IMG/VR virus record: IMGVR_UViG_3300046734_000026
Coordinates: 1-20,791 of that record
Length of the DNA stretch: 20,791 bases
Direction: 5' to 3' (one strand)
From: a virus
A model generated the notes under the pieces. That model did no database searches, was not told where the DNA came from, and saw only the letters and a list, made by a program, of their open reading frames with translations. Both the position numbers and the translations under genes were made by a program. This document shows, one piece after another, positions 5,201 to 20,791 of this stretch; position 1 is the first letter of the stretch, and every line of letters begins with the position of its first letter.

Positions 5201-5229
5201 ATTATACCACATCATGTGGCGTTTGTCAA
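5201..5229 (-). promoter_or_regulatory. Perfect sigma70 promoter for the primase-like gene, leaderless
   Basis: TTGACA, 17-nt spacer, TATAAT, then 7 nt (ACATCCC) to the ATG at 5193. The TGA stop of dam is bases 2-4 of TTGACA. The spacer holds a palindrome CCACAT-C-ATGTGG (5207-5219) that could be an operator. No Shine-Dalgarno is present. Confidence 0.85.
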
Positions 5230-6110
5230 ACAAAAAATTCTTCAAGTGTTTGTTGTGATATATTTTCTGGGACATCATAGTTCCAGATAAGCAACTCTTT
5301 CTTCAGATGCTCATTCTCACGATATGATGCGCTCGACACCATAGTGTATACTAGATCCCAGATCTTTTGATTCCAGTTCTTGTATGCTTCTTGCAGTGTG
5401 TCATTTGAGTTGTAAGTGATCATGACCATATTGTCCGACGCGTCAGTACACTCAAAAAATTCTTTGTGATCAAATGAGTTATGCATGTCACCACCCTTGC
5501 CATAAATGAAAGTGGCAATATCGTAGGGTGGATCTGCAAAGACAAACACGTCAGGATCGTCACAGAACATTGTGGAATAATCTTCATTCGTGATTGTCCA
5601 GTTCTGCATGAGTCGAGAATACTTGGGGAGTTTGCCTATCAGTCTGTGATGAAAGTGATCAAAGCAAGACCCCTTAGAAAATGACGCAGATAACTCTGTG
5701 AGACCAGAGAATGAACACCGATTGAGAATATAGAATGCCCATGCAGTCTCAAATTCATTCTTGGGATTTGCAAGGACGTCTGTCACAACGTGATAATAGT
5801 CATAGTGCGCTTGTTTGGTGTCAGACGCGCTGAGTAGTTCGTCTTTGATGTCGTGAAGTTTCTGAGTAAGCGCTTCACCTTCTTTCTGAAGAGTCAACCA
5901 AAAACAATACAGATTATAGTACTTGTCGTTGACTCGCACAGGAATGTCAGGAAACTTTTTAGTGAACGCAAATGCGCACGACCCACCACCAAGAAAGGGT
6001 TCGCGATACTCTTTGATGTTTTTGACAGGCAGGTTTTCACGCGAGAACAGAAAATCAACTGCTCTCGATTTGCCACCAGGATATCGTAAAGGCGTTCTTA
6101 GATCTTTCAT
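5226..6110 (-). CDS. dam: DNA adenine N6-methyltransferase, Dam/D12 class
   Basis: Transfers a methyl group from S-adenosylmethionine to adenine N6 in DNA. The D12-class motifs are complete: LRYPGGKSR (residues 8-16), EPFLGGGS (37-44, SAM-binding motif), NRCSFSGLTEL region near 130, and the catalytic FADPPYD (DPPY at 193-196). Because the SAM-binding block begins at residue 8, the ATG at 6110 must be the start; it lies 6 nt after a TATAAT box and has no Shine-Dalgarno. After the last catalytic-domain strand (ELLIWNY) there is a short tail ending QQTLEEFFV, nearly the same as the C-terminus of the adjacent polymerase. Expected target is GATC-like, as for T4 Dam, but specificity cannot be read from sequence. 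The TGA stop lies in the -35 box of the next gene. Confidence 0.95.
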   Translation of the reverse strand: MKDLRTPLRYPGGKSRAVDFLFSRENLPVKNIKEYREPFLGGGSCAFAFTKKFPDIPVRVNDKYYNLYCFWLTLQKEGEALTQKLHDIKDELLSASDTKQAHYDYYHVVTDVLANPKNEFETAWAFYILNRCSFSGLTELSASFSKGSCFDHFHHRLIGKLPKYSRLMQNWTITNEDYSTMFCDDPDVFVFADPPYDIATFIYGKGGDMHNSFDHKEFFECTDASDNMVMITYNSNDTLQEAYKNWNQKIWDLVYTMVSSASYRENEHLKKELLIWNYDVPENISQQTLEEFFV

Positions 6111-6116
6111 ACGAGT

Positions 6117-6145
6117 ATTATACTACAACAAGAGACGTATGTCAA
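6117..6145 (-). promoter_or_regulatory. Perfect sigma70 promoter for dam, leaderless
   Basis: TTGACA, 17-nt spacer, TATAAT, then 6 nt (ACTCGT) to the ATG at 6110. The gene 43 stop TGA lies inside the -35 box. No Shine-Dalgarno. Confidence 0.85.
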
Positions 6146-8616
6146 CCGAAAAAGTCCTCGAGTGTAGCTTTCGGTTCAGACTGCCACCCGACAGCGTCTA
6201 AAATAGGTTCGAGAGGATCAAGGAACGTCTTGTCAAACATCATACTATAGTCCACATATTTGTGCAGATCGAGTTCTGGTGGCAAATTCAGTGGATAACT
6301 TACAACATTCTGGCCGAGACTGTTGGGGACCTTGAGATAACAAAACTTGATTTTCTCACCCTGCTTCACGGTCTCGTATCGAGATTCTAGACTGTTCTCT
6401 TTTAGAGCATTGTTATAACACAGTGCACCACGAACGTGAATAGGAGTGCCTTTCTTGAAAATCGTTTCTCGCGAAGTCCACTTGATCAAGTCTGACACAC
6501 CACGAGGAAAAGAAACTTCTTCGGGAGGGAGTGTCTGAAATTCATTCTTGAAATTACGGATGAACGATTGAGTATCGTTCTCGGTGCCCTCGATGATCAC
6601 GCGGAAGATCTCTTTGAACTTATCACGGACGACCTGTGGAGTCGAAGACTTGATTGCCTCGATACCCATCATCTTGAGTTTGGGTTCTGCGTACTGGACA
6701 CCCTCGTTGTTGTGGACATTCAGGATGTATCGTTTCTTCGCCATCCAGATCCCACGGTCCGCGATAACCTCACGTCCCATCTCCATTCGGTTGACATATG
6801 CGCCTGTGACCTCTGCCATCTTTGCATATGATTTATCAAGTGATTTCTCGAAATGTTCGCGGCAGATCTTATCTAAGAACTTGACAGGATTGTTGGGACT
6901 AAAACGGTCGATAAGATCACCCATTCGAATATAAACGGAGTCTGTGTCAATCGCCACGACATAATCTTCATCTGTTTTGAGAATGTTTTGCATCTCATTG
7001 TTCACACATCTCTCTGCCCATTTGATCGCCAACTGACCAGCCATGGTGATAGACTCAGCGACTCGCTGATCGAAATAACGGAACCACTTGTTACCCAACG
7101 CACCATAAAGTGAGTTCATTAGGATCTTGATCGCCATCTGTTGATTGTTTAGTGATGTGATCTTGTACTGGAGTGACTTACTTGGGTTCTTCTGATACTC
7201 ACGGTCGAGTTCTAGCATCTTATCTTTGATGATGCGTCGATCTGCGTAATAGTGTTCAATGATTGTCGGGATCACGCCCTTGCGTTCGTGAGAGAATTGC
7301 ACACCCGTGGGTGCGAGCGAGTATTCAGAATCATTTACTGTTCTACCATCCAAGAAACTCTCGACAGAAACATCGGGAACAATACCATCGACCACAGTCT
7401 CTGGCGACATGTTGTATTGCACAATGATGTTGGGATACAGAGAGTTCAGGTCAAACGATGTCACCCAGTCGTGAGATCCGACTTGAGGATCTTTCACGTA
7501 ACCACCAGGATACGGAGTCTTGGGATTATCTGTCTTTGGTGGGATTACGATCTTCTGGTTGTTCAACATTCGGTAAATGATCGAGTCCCAGATCGCAGTC
7601 GTACCGAGAGTGTCTGTATAGTTGACACCGCCACGATACGCCATAGTGAGTACCAGAGAGATTAGGTCAAGCTTCTCATCGATCTTGTGCACCAACTCAA
7701 CGTCTTTCACGTTGTAGTCTATGAACTTCTGATAGTCTTCTCGGTACAATGTGTGCAGATTACCATGCTCTTCGTAAGAGAGTTTGCGCTCGCCGAGAAC
7801 GACGTGTGCGATGTGGTCAAGGCGATACGACTCTTGCTGTCCGAGTGTGTTGAGGGTGAACTTTTTGAAGATCTCAATATAGTCCAGATGCTCAATGCCT
7901 TCGATCACATACTCTTGGTTCTCGCGACCGTTGATCTTCTGGATTCTCTCGCGCACGAGACCCCATGGCGACAGACGTTTTACTAACGTGTCGTCACCAA
8001 AAATCTTGTAACATCGGTTGACGATGTAAGGAATATCAAAGAATCGTGTGTTCCATCCTGTGATAATATCAGGACCGTAGTTCTGCCAGTGGTCTACAAA
8101 CTTGCGAATCAGATCAATCTCATTGTCGCAACGAATAAACAGAACATCTTCACGAGAAGGTGTGTAGTCGTTGAGACCCCACACCCAGTAGTTGCCGTCA
8201 TTCTTACGAAGGGCAATAGAGATGATTGGATACTTTGCAGATCTGGGTTCTGGGAATCCGTCGTCAGACGCAACCTCGATATCGATATTCAGGACGCGGA
8301 CTTGATCACGTTCGAACTTAATATCGTTAGGCCAGTACTCAGATATAAACTGCGCAGTATAATTGTTCTGACCGAAGACTTCGAAGTTGTGAACATTACG
8401 ATACATCTTCACGAACTCCGTCGCATCTTTCATAGTCTCGAACTGCATTTCGACCATGGACTCTCCTTCGAGAGTTTTCCACTCAGATGGGGAGTCACCG
8501 GTTACATAGAGTTTTGGTTTAAAGGGAACGCGGGTCTTGATCTGTTGACCATTATCATAGCCGCGATATAGTATGTTGTTGCCGATATGGCGAACGTTCG
8601 TATAGAATTTAGTCAT
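6142..8616 (-). CDS. 43: DNA polymerase gp43, family B with 3'-5' exonuclease
   Basis: Replicative DNA polymerase, 824 aa (T4 gp43 is about 900). Exonuclease motifs: Exo I D112-I-E114, Exo [15 protein letters not shown] (N189, D194), Exo III YNVKD (Y301, D305). Polymerase motifs: [10 protein letters not shown] (D389), [14 protein letters not shown] (from K497), C AIDTDSVY (D557, D559), then KKRYILNV. The N-terminus MTKFY..IGNN aligns with the T4 protein start, which fixes the ATG at 8616. The C-terminus ATLEDFFG fits the known clamp-binding tail of T4-type polymerases. The gene is preceded by a promoter whose TATAAT ends 7 nt before the ATG, with CTCCTAC between and no Shine-Dalgarno, so a leaderless mRNA is predicted. 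This would differ from T4, where gp43 represses its own translation at a leader hairpin. Confidence 0.98.
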
Positions 8617-8623
8617 GTAGGAG

Positions 8624-8653
8624 ATTATATACCAATTTGGTGTATAGTGTCAA
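8624..8653 (-). promoter_or_regulatory. Sigma70 promoter for gene 43, leaderless
   Basis: TTGACA, 18-nt spacer, TATAAT, then 7 nt (CTCCTAC) to the ATG at 8616. The upstream TGA stop is inside the -35 box. No Shine-Dalgarno. Confidence 0.82.
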
Positions 8654-9501
8654 GCGAAAAACTCATCTAAATTATTTGAGTTGAGATCTTCATTTTTGCC
8701 TTTTGGCATGTGAGTATATTTGCGCCAGATCTTAGAGGGTTGTACTTTGATTCTGCCATACTGCTCTGTGATCTTGAACGCGCCAGGCCAGTACTTCTGT
8801 AGACCCTTTGATCTGACCATCCGCCATTCATCCGAGTTATCGTTGCCACCAGAGTTCGTACTAGTCGTCTCTTTACCAATCAAGAATGTATTGAGTAATA
8901 ATGTACAGTAAGACTGTTCAAGAACTTGCAAACTGTAATCTGTGTCTTCGACCACATCTGGACGCCACTCAATGTCTAGTGAATTATTGACAAGAACACA
9001 ACTATAGACTTGCTTGTTTACGTCAACCGCACTTGTCTTAGCAAATGCAAACCCCACATGACAGAAACCTAAGATGCCGATATTGTCATATTCTTTGATA
9101 TACTCAGCGGCAGCAGACATCAATGCGCGAGGATTGTCTCGAACGTTCTTATTGTTCTTACGAATACGAAAGTCATGGATGTTGTCATCTATCTGCCAGT
9201 GATAGTCAAAACCGAGACTGCGAGAATGTGATTTGCAGAAATTTCGGACATACTGAATGCCCATGTCATTCTGGTCTAGAACCAGAAGATTAGAAGAATC
9301 ATAAACAGATGCGTAATCATCACGATCTTGGGGTTCTACGACGACGTAGTAGTTTGAAATGCCAGAATCTTCTAGTGCTTTAGATGTGATCTTTCTTGCG
9401 CGATTCTTTGACGGTATGTAAATAGGAAAATCTATCGCATCATACTTATCGAGATCCGACAGTAATTTGTGCGCAAAATTTTCTAATACTTTATGAGTCA
9501 T
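8650..9501 (-). CDS. Glycosyltransferase resembling the TET-associated (TAGT) family
   Basis: A 283-aa protein. The first half has the look of a GT-A fold: FPIYIPSKNRA (residues 25-35), YYVVVEPQDRDDY (51-63), GIQYVRNFCKSHS (81-93), and FDYHWQIDDNI (98-108), whose DDN takes the place of a metal/sugar-nucleotide DxD. These are the hallmarks I associate with phage TAGT glycosyltransferases, which decorate hydroxymethylated pyrimidines in DNA. VVEDTDYSLQVL (near 184-195) fits the later ED acidic motif of GT-A enzymes. The protein ends NNLDEFFA, close to the C-termini of gp43 and Dam. It lies directly upstream of gene 43 with its own promoter and no Shine-Dalgarno; no alternative start exists because the fold begins by residue 25. 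Glycosyltransferase: likely. DNA as acceptor: inference. Confidence 0.82.
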   Translation of the reverse strand: MTHKVLENFAHKLLSDLDKYDAIDFPIYIPSKNRARKITSKALEDSGISNYYVVVEPQDRDDYASVYDSSNLLVLDQNDMGIQYVRNFCKSHSRSLGFDYHWQIDDNIHDFRIRKNNKNVRDNPRALMSAAAEYIKEYDNIGILGFCHVGFAFAKTSAVDVNKQVYSCVLVNNSLDIEWRPDVVEDTDYSLQVLEQSYCTLLLNTFLIGKETTSTNSGGNDNSDEWRMVRSKGLQKYWPGAFKITEQYGRIKVQPSKIWRKYTHMPKGKNEDLNSNNLDEFFA

Positions 9502-9507
9502 TCAGGT

Positions 9508-9536
9508 ATTATATACAAAACCTTATCGTTTGTCAA
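9508..9536 (-). promoter_or_regulatory. Perfect sigma70 promoter for the TAGT-like gene, leaderless
   Basis: TTGACA, 17-nt spacer, TATAAT, then 6 nt (ACCTGA) to the ATG at 9501. The upstream TGA stop is inside the -35 box. No Shine-Dalgarno. Confidence 0.85.
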
Positions 9537-10333
9537 TCAATAACATGAAAAAAGTTATGCCGAGTCCAAGGTTCTTTAATGTGTTGATCTTTATACCCAT
9601 GATGATCTTGCGTTACTGCAAGTCGTTTTGAAATCATCTGCGTTGTTGGAGTAGGGATTCCTGTCTTGTGACGATCGGGCTCATTGAAGTATATACCAAT
9701 GTCACGACCAACACCTATAGTATCACATCCATTCCAAGGATGTAAAGCTGTATTTTTAATCCCATAGTAATCGATTTCTGACCGTTCTAAATGTTGCGTA
9801 GTATATGTTCTGAAAAGACGTTGCAACACACAGTAAGGTCCGCAGTTAATTGGAAAGTTGTTGTTAGTCATCATGTGATGACTCCAGTGCGCGAAGTTTC
9901 GATCCATGCAGTACATGCCCATGAACAGACCTATGTTTGCGTAGAGCGTATTCTCTGCGTACTCAGCGAGCAGTTTGAACGCTTCGTACCGTTCCTCTAT
10001 CAACCAAGTATCGTGTTCTAGTATCCAGAACTTCTCATCTGACTCTCCTTGTTGACGCATGAGTTCCCAGTGAGAACACATTCCTGCTTTCTCTGTAGGT
10101 GAGTGATCGTCTTTGTCTTTACCAGATTTGGTGTCTAGAGTCATGAGACTTTTAGACCAAGTGTATCGATCCACGTGTTCTTGAAACGTATCAGACTGGG
10201 GAGTGATTGCGTCAAAGGTTTCGATAGAGTCGATGTAACCATCATCGATGGCGCGTTGAAAAGACTGACGGGAGAGTGCAGCGTACTCTTCAGACCGTTC
10301 GTCTCCTTTCATGACAATCTGTATTGCTTTCAT
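9533..10333 (-). CDS. Putative glycosyltransferase, family-25-like
   Basis: A 266-aa protein starting MKAIQIVMKGD at the ATG at 10333; an in-frame GTG at 10342 is the alternative. The pattern SPTEKAGMCSHWELMRQ (from about residue 78) followed by FWILEHDTWLI (102-112) matches the GT25 layout, in which a conserved E-x-A/G-x-x-x-S-H block precedes an ILE(D/H)D acidic motif. HHHWNG-like motifs are absent, but HPWNG and a C-terminal H-rich region (TQDHHGYKDQH) may contribute. No membrane segment. It stands immediately after a strong terminator, and its TGA stop is inside the -35 box of the next gene. The acceptor is unknown: phage DNA, a virion protein or host surface polysaccharide are all possible. 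Confidence 0.72.
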   Translation of the reverse strand: MKAIQIVMKGDERSEEYAALSRQSFQRAIDDGYIDSIETFDAITPQSDTFQEHVDRYTWSKSLMTLDTKSGKDKDDHSPTEKAGMCSHWELMRQQGESDEKFWILEHDTWLIEERYEAFKLLAEYAENTLYANIGLFMGMYCMDRNFAHWSHHMMTNNNFPINCGPYCVLQRLFRTYTTQHLERSEIDYYGIKNTALHPWNGCDTIGVGRDIGIYFNEPDRHKTGIPTPTTQMISKRLAVTQDHHGYKDQHIKEPWTRHNFFHVID

Positions 10334-10343
10334 ATTTCTCACA

Positions 10344-12228: not shown

Positions 12229-12609
12229 TTATTCTCTTCCACCTCTGGATACCTTACTTTTAATTGTTGTTATTTGTGATTCTGACAAAAGACCTACCAC
12301 CTGTTTTGCTTTACTTTCACTATAACCGAAATACTTTTTCACGCATTCTATGTCGGTACGTTCTTCAGGTTTATCCCATTTAGAGAATCGTTTTTTCTTA
12401 CGTACAATATTTATAAGAAAGTCGTACTGCATCTTGTTATCTATATGATGCAAACGGTTCATTTCGTTAGACATAATTACCGTATCTGGGAAATATGACA
12501 GTGATCTATTCACAAGAAATGAGTTATATTTATTCTCATTATCCGCATCTTTATCCATTAAATTTATTTTAGTTGCATTAATACTAGTTACAAATTCAAA
12601 TGGATTCAC
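12229..12609 (-). CDS. 62: Clamp-loader small subunit gp62
   Basis: Small subunit of the gp44/gp62 clamp loader, which places gp45 on DNA. 126 aa, shorter than T4 gp62 (187) but in line with marine T4-like versions. Starts NPFEFVTSIN, followed by NSFLVNRSLSYFPDTVIMSNEMNR, MQYDFLINIVRKKKRFSKW and VKKYFGYS, blocks I recognise from cyanophage and marine gp62. The start is GTG at 12609, overlapping the gp44 stop as GTGA, with GAGG 7 nt upstream, so synthesis is coupled to gp44. The 3' end overlaps only a possible GTG extension of regA. Confidence 0.92.
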   Translation of the reverse strand: MNPFEFVTSINATKINLMDKDADNENKYNSFLVNRSLSYFPDTVIMSNEMNRLHHIDNKMQYDFLINIVRKKKRFSKWDKPEERTDIECVKKYFGYSESKAKQVVGLLSESQITTIKSKVSRGGRE

Positions 12610-13550
12610 GATTTGACCTCTACGTTTGCCATGACTTCAGTGAGGCAAGCGACAAGGTTCAACTCATGATCCGCAACGAAGGCATTCTTGTACTGATAAT
12701 CAGCAAGAATAAGAACAAGTTGCGGTATACTATTAGGAGAAACATGATCATACATACGATCATAGATTCCGCGAAAAATTGATGCGGGTTCAACGTCAAT
12801 ATTATTGACGACCCACGATCGCATTTTCTTAAAGTTTTTATCCCGTATAGATGTAAACAACTGGGTATATGGGTCAGATACGTCTTGACCTTGCGTAGGT
12901 GCGACGTTAAGCGTTCCCGAAATCGACCCCTTCTGCAACTCATTGAGTACACGGCGCCAGTCTGGTGCGTGTTTCATGATGACTTGCGCTAACACATCTT
13001 TGTGATATTCGACACCTTCGTCTCGAAGAATGTCCATCGCACGAGACATAAAGTCCGCCGATAAAGACTGTAAACCTTTCTTGGTCGTGTTAAACGCAAT
13101 CTTAGTACAACGAGAATGCAGTGGTTCAATGATTCTGTTCTCAAAGTTGCAGGTCATAATGAACCGACAGTTATTTGAGAACTCTTCGATGAATCCACGC
13201 AACGCAGGTTGCGTTGACTGTGGGTTAAGATAATCCGCTTCGTCTAGAATAACTACTTTGTAACCACCAGACAACGAAACAGAAGAGGCGAACTGCTTGA
13301 TCTTTCCACGTAGTGTGTCAATGTTGCCTTCTTCTGATCCATTGATTACGATATAATCGAGATCTAGTTCGTCACAGATTGCTCGTGCGACTGTGGTCTT
13401 ACCAGTACCAGCGGTACCTGCAAACATCATGTTGGGAATCTCTTCGCCATCCACGATGTTTTGAAAAGTAGTCTTTAGTTCTTTCTGTAAAATCGTCTCC
13501 GAGACTTTGCGTGGACGATATTTCTCAACCCATAAAAATTCATTGCTCAT
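12606..13550 (-). CDS. 44: Clamp-loader ATPase gp44 (RFC-like)
   Basis: AAA+ ATPase of the sliding-clamp loader, 314 aa. Begins with the WVEKYRP motif (residues 7-13) of RFC-type loaders. Walker A is AGTAGTGKTT (44-53), Walker B VVILDEADYL (99-108), sensor-1 region FIMTCNFENRI (130-140) and the SRC motif (146-148) that carries the arginine finger. The remainder is the helical collar domain. A good Shine-Dalgarno (GAGG, 5 nt spacer) precedes the ATG, and a TTTACA/TATAAT promoter lies at 13586-13614, giving a leader of about 30 nt. It is coupled to gp62 by overlap. Confidence 0.97.
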   Translation of the reverse strand: MSNEFLWVEKYRPRKVSETILQKELKTTFQNIVDGEEIPNMMFAGTAGTGKTTVARAICDELDLDYIVINGSEEGNIDTLRGKIKQFASSVSLSGGYKVVILDEADYLNPQSTQPALRGFIEEFSNNCRFIMTCNFENRIIEPLHSRCTKIAFNTTKKGLQSLSADFMSRAMDILRDEGVEYHKDVLAQVIMKHAPDWRRVLNELQKGSISGTLNVAPTQGQDVSDPYTQLFTSIRDKNFKKMRSWVVNNIDVEPASIFRGIYDRMYDHVSPNSIPQLVLILADYQYKNAFVADHELNLVACLTEVMANVEVKS

Positions 13551-13666: not shown

Positions 13667-14254
13667 TCATTTTTCTTCCGCATACTGATGATTCACCTTG
13701 GCGTGATGCATTTCGTCCTGTCGGACATATTTGATCATGTCAGATAATTTTGCATCAGGTAACAGACCGTAATATTCAATCGCAATATCTGGGGCAGGCA
13801 CATCTTCTATGTGACCAATTTCAATCAACTTCAAATAGTTGGTGTAACTGCGCACCGCTTCGTCTTCAAAATATCCAACCATACGATGTGCAGTTTTAGG
13901 AAACAACATGTATAATACAAGATAGTAATGCCAGAAGATAAATTGTGCGATGATGATTATTATACGTTCTAACAAAGACGGATGTACGACTTCCATAAAG
14001 AACATAAGATGTTTGCGTTCGTTCTCTGCTTCTGCGAGAAGTTCGTGAATCTTGTGCCCATTACCACGTTGCAGTTTACGCAAACTTTTTAGGTGGGTCA
14101 ACATACCGCCTATCATTCCAGGAACACCTGCGACGGTTTCTAGAACAAGGGCACGATGGCCGTATCGTTGACGAAAAAATGTGTCCGCAAATAATCTAAA
14201 GAAAGAAGTCATAGACTTAGCGAACCAATCTGAAATTTTTGTAGAAATGTTCAC
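13667..14254 (-). CDS. Alternative oxidase (AOX), ubiquinol type
   Basis: Membrane-associated di-iron quinol oxidase that passes electrons from ubiquinol to oxygen without pumping protons. 195 aa, near the size of bacterial AOX. The iron-binding motifs are all visible: LET (E39), NERKHL (E79, H82), FEDEA (129-133) and RQDEMHH (E181, H184). Flanking blocks (LETVAGVPGMIGGMLTHLKSLRKL, split in family alignments; PAPDIAIEYY) match mitochondrial and proteobacterial AOX much better than plastid/cyanobacterial PTOX. A hydrophobic stretch at about 98-117 is part of the monotopic membrane anchor. The start is GTG at 14254 with GGAG 5 nt upstream, only 15 nt past the tRNA 3' end. In infection it could keep electron flow or redox balance when host respiration fails. 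Host origin by transfer is inferred. Confidence 0.93.
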   Translation of the reverse strand: MNISTKISDWFAKSMTSFFRLFADTFFRQRYGHRALVLETVAGVPGMIGGMLTHLKSLRKLQRGNGHKIHELLAEAENERKHLMFFMEVVHPSLLERIIIIIAQFIFWHYYLVLYMLFPKTAHRMVGYFEDEAVRSYTNYLKLIEIGHIEDVPAPDIAIEYYGLLPDAKLSDMIKYVRQDEMHHAKVNHQYAEEK

Positions 14255-14916: not shown

Positions 14917-15597
14917 TTATGCTCCGTATGTTGAAGATTTTTCTAGTGCAATAAAGTATTGCGTATCTGAAGTAAGTGATCGGAAATGAGAGATCAACTT
15001 AGTTGATGCCGATACATTATAATCTTCACCTAGAAGTTTCATGTTAGCAACACCCATGATAAAGTTGAAGTCTGTGTCTGCAGGGAAGTTACCCTCGACC
15101 AAAACTGAGAACGAGTTAGATGTAGGATTATCAACATCAATAACTCGAATTTCTATACTCCCATTTCCAGAAGGACGAATAGAAATAGTGTCATAACCAA
15201 GAGCAGCAGATGCTTTCTTGATCTTTGCCAGAGTTTCGTTAGTCAAAACGAATTGAACTTCACACTCAGGCATGACAATATCTTTCTTAGGAGCAGACAA
15301 CATCTCTGGGTCAGAGTAAAAATACTTGACCGATGATAGTCCACTACCATCTGAGACTGTGCAATACTCTTGATCGAATTCGATCCGAGGATTATCGACC
15401 AACGATAACACAGACAAGAATTCAGAAAGATCATAAATGCCGAAAGTGCTTGGAAAGTTTTCTTCTACTTCTGCACGAGACACGATGTTCTTTGCAATTG
15501 CCATAGTCTTCAGGACATTACCGCCATTGACTACAATGTTTGGGTTGATAGTCGAGAAGTTACGCAAGATCTCGACCGTGCGACTAGATAGTTCCAT
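14917..15597 (-). CDS. 45: Sliding clamp gp45
   Basis: Trimeric processivity clamp for gp43; also the mobile activator of late transcription through gp55. The chosen start is the ATG at 15597 (226 aa, close to T4 gp45 at 228), because MELSSRTVEILRNFSTINPNI aligns in blocks with the T4 N-terminus and AGGA lies 8 nt upstream. An in-frame ATG at 15612 would place that AGGA inside the gene. The internal pattern (FGIYDLSEFLSVLSL, DTISIRPSGNGSIEI, MKLLGEDYNVS) is clamp-like. Its own perfect promoter is at 15627-15655. Several proteins in this window (gp43, Dam, the TAGT-like protein, gp55) have C-termini that could bind it. Confidence 0.96.
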   Translation of the reverse strand: MELSSRTVEILRNFSTINPNIVVNGGNVLKTMAIAKNIVSRAEVEENFPSTFGIYDLSEFLSVLSLVDNPRIEFDQEYCTVSDGSGLSSVKYFYSDPEMLSAPKKDIVMPECEVQFVLTNETLAKIKKASAALGYDTISIRPSGNGSIEIRVIDVDNPTSNSFSVLVEGNFPADTDFNFIMGVANMKLLGEDYNVSASTKLISHFRSLTSDTQYFIALEKSSTYGA

Positions 15598-15626
15598 TGA
15601 TTGATTCCTCATTTGATATGTTGCAC

Positions 15627-18716: not shown

Positions 18717-19307
18717 TTAATCTTCAATCCAATCAGATAAGTCTGAGTCAACATTTACAGCGCGGCGTTTTCGCTTCTTCTCTTCTTTTGAGTATTCTTT
18801 AAATTCGTCATCTGCAGACTTTACTGCATCGATGCGCATACGAAGAGTATCAACGAATGGTGATGTGTGATTATAAAAAGAACCTGCTTCGTCGTCATCT
18901 AAGAATTCACTCACGTCAGCTTCGGAGATAAATTTCATCTTGATGTCTTGTTGCTTCTTCTCTTTTTGAATACGACGGAGAAACGCGTACCATGATATCT
19001 GTGTGAAGTATGCAAACGCATTTGGTTTACCCGAACGGGTTGCAGCTTCTATATTATAGTTTTCAACTGCCTTGAGACAATTCTCCACTGCGTCCATTAC
19101 CATTTCTTCACGATAGGTATATCTTACAAAATTTGCTTTGTGTGACAACCCTTCTGCGATCTTTAAAAAGCATGTTGCAATATAGTCCGGGACAATGGGC
19201 ATAGGATCCCCACCAGATTTTGCTTTCTGAACTTCTGTACAATACTCAACGACTGCATTAGAAAAGTCTTTATTGCTTACGTAATGAGGTTTTTCTTTAG
19301 GTTTCAT
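18717..19307 (-). CDS. 55: Late-transcription sigma factor gp55
   Basis: Phage sigma factor that directs host RNA polymerase to late promoters (TATAAATA-type), activated by the gp45 clamp. 196 aa (T4: 185). Reduced sigma70-family region 2: YREEMVMDAVENCLKAVENY, then FAYFTQISWYAFLRRIQKEKKQQ (about residues 98-120), which is the gp55 signature for -10 recognition. The C-terminus SDLSDWIED keeps the hydrophobic/acidic character of clamp-binding tails. A perfect minus-strand promoter lies at 19335-19363, giving a leader of about 20 nt with only a weak AAGTGG as ribosome site. Confidence 0.94.
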   Translation of the reverse strand: MKPKEKPHYVSNKDFSNAVVEYCTEVQKAKSGGDPMPIVPDYIATCFLKIAEGLSHKANFVRYTYREEMVMDAVENCLKAVENYNIEAATRSGKPNAFAYFTQISWYAFLRRIQKEKKQQDIKMKFISEADVSEFLDDDEAGSFYNHTSPFVDTLRMRIDAVKSADDEFKEYSKEEKKRKRRAVNVDSDLSDWIED

Positions 19308-19429: not shown

Positions 19430-19867
19430 TCAATTCATGATCATTCCATTTGTATCAGAATCAATCTCTTCAATGTTCAACGATGATTGTGAAGCAGATT
19501 CCATCTCTTCAATGAAGTCTTCTAAGGACATATTGTCTTCGTCATAGTCTCCTTCAAGTTCTGAATTCGACATAAACGTTTCCATCTCTTTAATTGCATT
19601 CCCATACTGAGTCAACATCTCTTTTGTTGGCAACGCAAGAGAAACAATTTTGTCGGTGAATATCATAATCACATTTGTAGGAGTGTCTTGATATACCATA
19701 TATGTTTTAAACGCGTAAAACTTTGAACCATTCTCTAATGACTTTTCTGTGAGACTTAGTGCGTTATTGACAACAAGATTATCAGGAGATTCTTCTAAAA
19801 GATTGCATATGATCTCTTCACCTGTTATCAATTTCAAATGCTTAACTGAATAAATCGACTGAGTCAT
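19430..19867 (-). CDS. Small acidic protein, possibly Sm-like fold
   Basis: 145 aa located between uvsW and 55, where marine T4-like phages usually carry a small conserved gene. The N-terminal part (residues 8-75) alternates beta strands: VKHLKLITGEEIICNLLEE resembles the Sm1 motif of LSm/Hfq-type proteins (hydrophobic-x-L-x-x-G-x-x-hydrophobic), and NVIMIFTDKIVSLALP could be the Sm2-like strand pair. Residues 85-145 are acidic and helical or disordered. The ATG at 19867 is preceded by AAGGA (6-nt spacer) and overlaps uvsW by 26 nt. Fold is an inference; RNA binding would fit but is not shown. A plus-strand promoter at 19369-19397 points antisense into this gene. Confidence 0.78.
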   Translation of the reverse strand: MTQSIYSVKHLKLITGEEIICNLLEESPDNLVVNNALSLTEKSLENGSKFYAFKTYMVYQDTPTNVIMIFTDKIVSLALPTKEMLTQYGNAIKEMETFMSNSELEGDYDEDNMSLEDFIEEMESASQSSLNIEEIDSDTNGMIMN

Positions 19868-20791
19868 CGGTTGTCCTTATTGGTTTTAGGTCGATAGGGT
19901 AAATCTTATATTTGAACCCTTCTTTAGTATATATCTTAATCCTTTCAGCACTATGTTTCAGAGTAAAATTTTTATGAGACTTGACATGGAGATCATCAGC
20001 GATATCAATAAGCTTAGTAGTCCGACCATCGTCAGACTGGCGCAAGCCACGACCAATCGATTGGAGAACTTTAACCTGTGATTTCGACGGAGTCGCAAAT
20101 ATAATATTATGCAGGTTGCGGATGTTGATGCCAGTGCTGAAAGTGCCAAGAGAAGCAACAATAATAGCGTCATTTTCTTTTTCTACGATTCCTCGTATCT
20201 GTTCTCGATCAGAAGCGGCTACTTCTCCAGACACGTAAAATACTTTACGTCCTTCTGGTGTTAAGCCTCTAATCATATCGTACAACACTTTACCATGTTT
20301 CTCTACAAACTGAAACATTACTAGAGTGTTGCCCCGTTGATCCAGCGCAATCTTACTGATAAATCGATTACGTGGTTCGTATGTGACAATATAATCAAGT
20401 TCGTCTTGATACTTTTTGTCTTTCATCATATTACAGATATCGTTGTGGTATCGTAACAGAAGAATTGAAATATCCAACTCTGCCAGTTCTTTTGACTTTT
20501 GCAGTTCAACTGTACGGGTAACAGTGAATGTTGGACCAAATAGTCCTTCTAAGACTAGTTTGTTTGTTTCGGTACCGTCAAGGGTACCTGTAAGACCAAA
20601 TCTATATTTGGCGTTAACGCACTTGTCCATCATAGTGGTGAGGGACTTTGCTTTGAAAAGATGTACTTCATCACCAAAGACGGTATCGAATTGTTCGAAC
20701 CACTCTTTACCGAATTTGTAGATTGATTGCCATGTAGAAATTATGACACGCTTGTCTGTGACTTTTTCTTTGCCCGAGTAGATGCGGTGAC
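19842..20791 (-). CDS. uvsW: UvsW superfamily-2 helicase, 5' end cut by window edge
   Basis: ATP-dependent DNA/RNA helicase that unwinds R-loops, promotes branch migration and helps switch from origin-dependent to recombination-dependent replication. The frame is open from the right edge (315 codons seen). I read VIISTWQSIYKFGKEWF (from about residue 15 of the fragment), motif II DEVH (40-43; normally DEAH or DECH, so V is a small deviation), FGLTGTLDG (motif III region), then the C-terminal RecA-like domain with VASLGTFSTGINI and motif VI QSIGRGLRQ. It ends in DDSVDLFS. Walker A is outside the window. In T4 the gene is expressed late; see the antisense promoter near 19380. Confidence 0.95.
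   Translation of the reverse strand, partial: HRIYSGKEKVTDKRVIISTWQSIYKFGKEWFEQFDTVFGDEVHLFKAKSLTTMMDKCVNAKYRFGLTGTLDGTETNKLVLEGLFGPTFTVTRTVELQKSKELAELDISILLLRYHNDICNMMKDKKYQDELDYIVTYEPRNRFISKIALDQRGNTLVMFQFVEKHGKVLYDMIRGLTPEGRKVFYVSGEVAASDREQIRGIVEKENDAIIVASLGTFSTGINIRNLHNIIFATPSKSQVKVLQSIGRGLRQSDDGRTTKLIDIADDLHVKSHKNFTLKHSAERIKIYTKEGFKYKIYPIDLKPIRTTDDSVDLFS

Follow-up and report, generated by a model that had tools for sequence, protein, structure and literature searches.

C-terminal tails resembling that of gp43 on DNA-modifying enzymes of T4-like phages: putative docking peptides for the sliding clamp gp45

Introduction

Why do a DNA polymerase, an adenine methylase and a glycosyltransferase of one phage end in nearly the same peptide? 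The question is raised by a T4-like phage fragment of 20.8 kb (IMG/VR record IMGVR_UViG_3300046734_000026, positions 1 to 20,791), the whole of which is called here the window. A preliminary description had noticed the peptide and proposed that DNA-modifying enzymes ride on the sliding clamp gp45. In T4, the SLDFLF peptide of gp43 forms a single helical turn that fits into a hydrophobic pocket where the two domains of a gp45 subunit meet; the polymerase no longer associates with the clamp when its last six residues are removed (PMC12746103). The clamp tails of gp43, gp55 and gp33 can replace one another, and that of gp55 is a conserved C-terminal peptide carried by a linker divergent in sequence and length (PMC2988020). 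DNA ligase also has a clamp-binding motif (PMC7892883). The known T4 clients are polymerase, transcription factors and ligase, whereas the carriers described below are DNA-modifying enzymes and nucleases.

Results

A C-terminal peptide shared by Dam, gp43 and TAGT

The minus strand of the window carries a replication block with gp41, UvsX, a UDP-glucose dehydrogenase-like gene, an epimerase-like gene, primase, Dam, gp43, TAGT, RegA, gp62, gp44, gp45, gp46, gp47, gp55 and UvsW. All window features given below are on this strand. The Dam-type adenine methylase (294 aa, 5226..6110) was identified by alignments and by a match to PF02086 (E=4e-26, aa 10-256). With 92.8 bits for a cut-off of 22 and an invariant DPPY motif, it belongs to the D12 class of N6-adenine methylases. 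The neighbouring gene encodes the family B DNA polymerase gp43 (824 aa, 6142..8616; PF00136/PF03104, phrog_262). The third protein is a TET-associated glycosyltransferase, TAGT (283 aa, 8650..9501), matching PF20691 over residues 25-219 (E=5e-35); its score of 121.9 bits, for a curated cut-off of 27.5, makes it a member of that family. Just upstream, a 269 aa protein (9533-10342) has no Pfam or PHROG family match; its relatives adjoin gp43 in many loci and end in ..FFHVID.

The shared ending was confirmed as TLEEFFV in Dam (5229..5249), TLEDFFG in gp43 (6145..6165) and NLDEFFA in TAGT (8653..8673). The gp43 peptide stands at the position of T4 SLDFLFG, whose clamp role is established (PMC12746103, PMC2988020), and the window tails match the SLDFLF clamp-interacting peptide. 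Like the ends of T4/RB69 gp43, gp55 and gp33, they are short hydrophobic and acidic peptides with a leucine and an aromatic residue as anchors, at the extreme C-terminus. The hydrophobic core L-x-x-F/L-F and the acidic residues are conserved. The tails also lie outside the catalytic domains, as had been proposed: the Pfam domains stop at residue 256 of 294 in Dam and 219 of 283 in TAGT. Among close relatives the tail is conserved in all three families; TAGT relatives carry ALSEFFN, DLSEFF, TLEQFF or NLLDFL at the same place.

The presumed docking partner, gp45, is encoded at 14917..15612 (PF09116, phrog_223), and its only sequence matches in the PDB are T4/RB69 gp45 structures. The large subunit of the clamp loader, gp44 (12606..13550), was assigned as an open reading frame whose ortholog, at the corresponding position in C48C1, is annotated, and the small subunit, gp62 (12229..12609), as the adjoining frame, annotated as clamp loader at the same position in C48C1. 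Near these genes, within the replication block, a protein encoded at 13667-14254 strongly matches alternative oxidase (PF01786, E=3e-70).

Two further proteins had been listed as carrying weaker versions of the tail. The DLSDWIED end of gp55 (18720..18743) turned out to be conserved across its own family as DSDL[SGT][DE/A][FWY][ILMF] and is a sliding-clamp-binding motif of the gp55 type, with a role known for T4 gp55 (PMC2988020). For UvsW, SVDLFS (19845..19862) is indeed weak, a partly conserved candidate: three relatives end in DTLFD, DELFD and DEFFS and the others are tail-less. This UvsW (19842-20789) and its orthologs in C48C1, G001 and G002 have a short extra end that is shared by a few close relatives and lacking in others, possibly a weaker clamp motif.

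The Dam tail has the features of a linear motif on a flexible linker

Conservation of the Dam tail was studied in relatives from 80 IMG/VR loci (51-96% identity). Intact relatives end like [STN]L[DE]x[FW][FLMW], and the two most distant ones (L081 and L083) have degenerate versions. When 55 distinct tails were anchored on the motif, the leucine and the first phenylalanine were invariant (0 bits of entropy). The S/T and D/E positions showed about 1 bit and the preceding linker 2.1-2.8 bits; a variable linker hence precedes fixed L and F. The catalytic core ends around residue 278 (...LIWNY) and is followed by the linker, then by the tail. In an AlphaFold2 model of Dam alone, built from 33 relatives, mean pLDDT was 88 for residues 271-280, 54 for residues 281-290 and 42 for residues 291-294, the model being confident up to about residue 278. 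Within the tail of this free model, a short helix at residues 289-292 was predicted with low confidence (pLDDT <50). The combination of fixed L and F, a variable linker and AlphaFold2 confidence that drops after about residue 278 is characteristic of a short linear docking motif joined to the domain by a flexible linker.

The window Dam has a glutamine where a PIP box (QxxhxxFF) would have one (QQTLEEFF). This residue is not conserved in relatives (PTPPSLDDFF, QGVSTLDAFF), so that the tail does not qualify as a PIP box. In the S-PM2 genome, the Dam match (L153, 673-1451) is annotated as two separate coding sequences, suggesting a frameshift or a broken gene.

A C-terminal LxxFF could also be structural, packing on its own domain or mediating oligomerisation. 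The baseplate protein gp26 gives a seeming precedent, since there LDDFF can be integral to a domain. In Dam, TAGT, TET, Mom and ADDT, on the contrary, the Pfam domains stop 38-81 residues short of the C-terminus; moreover, the Dam tail is of low confidence in the model, the linkers are variable and one tail type is found on many unrelated folds. A structural role for the tails is therefore extremely unlikely. As to gp26 itself, we rejected it as a tail carrier and regard it as a false-positive family, with LDDFF inside its own domain and no linker. In gp26-type proteins (L172 15098-15805 and orthologs), the LDDFF ending often comes directly after a zinc-finger-like segment, within the Pfam domain. 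Given this look-alike, the motif alone is no proof of clamp docking.

The tail recurs on unrelated DNA-acting enzymes

A six-residue profile trained on gp43 tails only was applied to 6476 unique proteins in 3171 families. Among families with at least three members, 11 of 326 were tailed in 50% or more of their proteins. The loci had been collected around gp43, Dam, Mom, TET and the SinI-like gene, so that these families have inflated member counts, which leaves the fractions within families unaffected. The same test at internal positions gave a mean of 0.54 families and a maximum of 3, and the recurrence of the tail is consequently not due to chance. The profile also recovered T4 gp33, a known clamp client.

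Hits were obtained for 109 of 112 gp43 and 52 of 65 Dam proteins. The TET/JBP dioxygenases (PF12851) gave 14 of 15, and a hand count found the tail in all 14 full-length TETs. For Mom (PF25680), 20 of 36 proteins passed the profile threshold, and by hand count about 46 of 55 intact loci have a tail of this kind. The tail was further found in the amino acid:DNA transferase ADDT (PF18724; 6/12), a GNAT protein beside TET (11/11), a SinI-like nuclease (13/13), a phrog_799 methylase (3/3), an HNH nuclease (3/4), a PP-loop protein resembling Asn-synthase/QueC (8/12) and a family of 287 aa proteins (2/3). Similar endings were seen in N6_N4 methylases (L136, L351), a BglII-like nuclease (L141), an EndoVII-like nuclease (L130) and PD-(D/E)XK nucleases (L041, L071). 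Leaving aside the PP-loop and 287 aa families, the carriers are, as predicted from their sequences, DNA polymerases, DNA-modifying enzymes or nucleases.

Two of these groups deserve description. The PP-loop protein (L117 4535-5401, L147 9082-9951, G005 17-883) ends in DLSDFMS/TLSDFFS and adjoins gp43 in several loci; its substrate may be DNA or a modified base. A TET-linked operon (L395 6870-9743, corresponding to 26870-29743 of contig G045) includes ADDT and GNAT genes, both tailed, together with P-loop kinase-like and class II amidotransferase-like genes recognised by eye, both untailed. The gene content of this operon resembles that of a pathway for base hypermodification.

Three cultured phages were reached by homology searches that started from the tailed enzymes. 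In Stenotrophomonas phage DLP6, which has gp45, a profile scan of all 862 six-frame open reading frames gave five hits: gp43 (TLDSFFA), TET (TLGDFFV), TAGT (DLSSFFN; PF20691 E=1e-9) and two that are probably spurious. Caulobacter phage Cr30 also has gp45. Its gp43 ends in DLSSLFD and, in parallel, a TAGT-like protein (E=8.5e-4, a weak match that falls short of the Pfam cut-off) ends in DLSKLF, while its TET has a shortened ending, ATLF; of these three, only gp43 passes the profile. In Methylophilales phage Melnitz, Mom ends in TLEGFF and gp43 in TLEDFFG.

A search with the DLP6 TAGT defined a second TAGT subtype, in which 13 of 13 relatives are tailed, all beside T4-like genes. Among relatives of the window-type TAGT (about 48% identity or more), 8 of 9 have some version of the tail, with weak forms such as NLLDFL (three cases) and ITEFYG. 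The tail is missing from all of some 70 TAGTs that are more distant and for the most part have no T4-like genes nearby. A window-type homolog on a Mom contig (G026, 37% identical) was considered as a further example and rejected as tail-less; the contig carries a second TAGT, of the DLP6 type, ending in NLENFLND.

Many tailed genes, among them Dam, Mom, the SinI-like nuclease and other nucleases, lie directly beside gp43. The tails could accordingly be functionless by-products, if genes inserted there had captured the 3′ end codons of gp43 by recombination. Several arrangements speak against such an origin. The C48C1 TET is about 16 kb from gp43, the TET and TAGT of DLP6 are more than 10 kb from it, and the window TAGT lies upstream of gp43. 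In addition, L and F are fixed while the linker varies. Within one genome, synonymous sites differ between the codons for the gp43, Dam and TAGT tails, so that recent copying of the 3′ end of gp43 was rejected as their source. A by-product origin thus appears highly improbable.

Relation of the tail to the presence of gp45

If the tails serve gp45, they are expected to be missing where gp45 is missing. The gene for gp45 is present in the window and in the complete tail-bearing records that were checked (C48C1, DLP6, Cr30, Melnitz). Conversely, tail-less homologs were found in records where a search for gp45 was negative: TET of S-CBWM1, HTVC112P and P12024L; Mom of Psychrobacter phage Y8A (52% identical), Mu and G019; TAGT of Vibrio phages 1.124 and 1.076, Tenacibaculum phage PTm1 and P12024L. 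This expectation held. Several homologs, however, are tail-less despite gp45. This is the case for T4 Dam and cyanophage Dam, the latter stopping directly after its domain, for the Mom proteins of S-SSM7 and Phynn, and for most Straboviridae TAGTs (Aeromonas phages 65 and Aeh1, POP12, henriette, Kuja). The tail is lineage-specific, and the presence of gp45 alone does not predict it. For the same reason, the arrangement of clamp and tail is not a required one. One group of Mom proteins (L315-L321) ends in SSRLPGY, with no clamp-type tail, yet is 73-74% identical to tailed Mom. We rejected it as a clean gp45-negative control, the contig being a fragment that carries T4-like genes.

Bacterial Dam relatives carry a beta-clamp-type motif

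The bacterial beta clamp is bound by peptides of the consensus Q[LM]xL(x)[FLM]. We searched for this motif in Dam relatives from 80 bacterial loci (L538-L617, 32-44% identity), 70 of which have tails of at least 5 aa. It was found in 24 of the 70, a count that does not represent independent events because the loci contain clusters of related cyanobacteria. Shuffled tails gave a mean of 0.77 matches and a maximum of 4. The motif follows the same ...N-[YF] domain boundary and a variable linker, with endings such as QQLSLF, KQMDLF, KQLDLF, EQLTLF and QLELF (e.g. L544, L548, L565, L579); QQLSLF is, for instance, the end of a Spirulina Dam. In contrast, 0 of 59 tails of the phage Dam family have the beta-clamp motif, and the gp45-type tail occurs in 54 of these 59 as compared to 1 of the 70 bacterial relatives. 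Overall, the type of Dam tail follows the clamp of its replicon. This fits clamp docking and is predicted neither by a structural role nor by a by-product origin. No report of a beta-clamp-type motif on bacterial Dam relatives was found in the open PMC subset.

These results also bear on the partner. What ties the phage tails to gp45 in particular is solely their resemblance in sequence to the gp43 tail, and hydrophobic and acidic peptides can be promiscuous. Another shared partner might thus be bound, for instance the host beta clamp, the host RNA polymerase or another replisome protein. Given that the beta-clamp motif is absent from the phage Dam tails though frequent in the bacterial homologs, and that the tail is missing from homologs in phages lacking gp45, we consider such a partner very unlikely.

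Discussion

The shared tails are very probably gp45-docking peptides that would tether DNA-modifying enzymes to the replication clamp. The idea that such enzymes ride on gp45 is supported by the recurrence of the tail on unrelated enzymes, by its absence where gp45 is lacking and by the switch of motif in bacteria. In this T4-like lineage, unrelated enzymes that act on DNA by modifying it, or in some cases by cutting it, would have acquired tails of the gp43/gp55/gp33 kind on flexible linkers. Since motif, position and linker are identical, the pocket used by gp43 is most likely also where the tails of Dam, TAGT, TET, Mom and the other carriers dock. As a helix of one turn, the tail would place its leucine and phenylalanine in that hydrophobic pocket, between the two domains of a gp45 subunit.

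Binding to gp45 and action at the fork are both steps that we infer. As gp45 offers three pockets, a modifying enzyme could share the ring with the polymerase and act just behind the fork. Alternatively, it could make use of clamps that stay on the DNA once the fork has passed. The preliminary description had coupled modification either to the fork or to late transcription; replication is the simpler proposal and nothing specific in the present data supports late transcription. Modification of new DNA would be fast and phage-selective, and would precede cutting by host defences. For the tailed nucleases, recombination, repair or attack on competing DNA may be envisaged.

Part of this picture has a precedent. 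T4 alpha-GT, also a phage DNA-modifying enzyme, was shown to bind gp45 (Sommer 2004, as cited in PMC13216743), and a pull-down in PMC13216743 confirmed the contact. According to the same work, this contact is not the main cause of the alpha/beta glucosylation ratio. Unlike the tailed enzymes, T4 alpha-GT (NC_000866) ends in CFKEQFDIITK, without such a tail, and its fold is GT-B whereas that of TAGT is GT-A (PMC13216743). PMC13216743 describes no motif common to several enzymes, in contrast with the present data. A search for the T4 alpha-GT family (PF11440) gave no match in the phages tried, the T4 strain 147 record included.

In eukaryotes, the DNA methylase DNMT1 is held at the fork by a PCNA-binding peptide, an N-terminal PIP box. 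The likeness lies in a methylase being kept at the fork via a clamp-binding peptide. However, DNMT1 is an unrelated methylase and the PIP-box glutamine is not conserved in the phage tails. The bacterial QL[SD]LF motif has the same post-domain position in Dam relatives but is not carried by phage Dam tails. The preliminary description was aware of no account of such tails on Dam or TAGT enzymes. Indeed, searches of the open PMC subset yielded no description of clamp tails for Dam, TET, Mom, ADDT or TAGT, whereas contact of a modifying enzyme with gp45 was already on record for T4 alpha-GT. What appears to be new here is the presence of such tails on DNA-modifying enzymes; the clamp peptides themselves and one modifying enzyme held by gp45 were known.

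A phage has to modify each new genome before restriction or CRISPR cutting, and should spend no effort on the DNA of its host. Both problems would be solved by a tail that docks on the phage's own clamp. Such a tail would also account for the targeting of unrelated methylases, oxygenases, glycosyltransferases and Mom enzymes to new phage DNA. A gp43-like tail on a linker would be a simple predictor of DNA-acting enzymes among phage genes of unknown function. The parallel beta-clamp motif indicated on bacterial Dam-like methylases raises a broader proposal, which we hold at even balance: clamp tethering may be a general, repeatedly evolved strategy of DNA modification, with phage tails for gp45 and bacterial methylase tails for the beta clamp, and with selectivity between self and non-self provided by the clamp of each replicon. 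If so, each enzyme would modify the newly made DNA of its own replicon, riding its own clamp.
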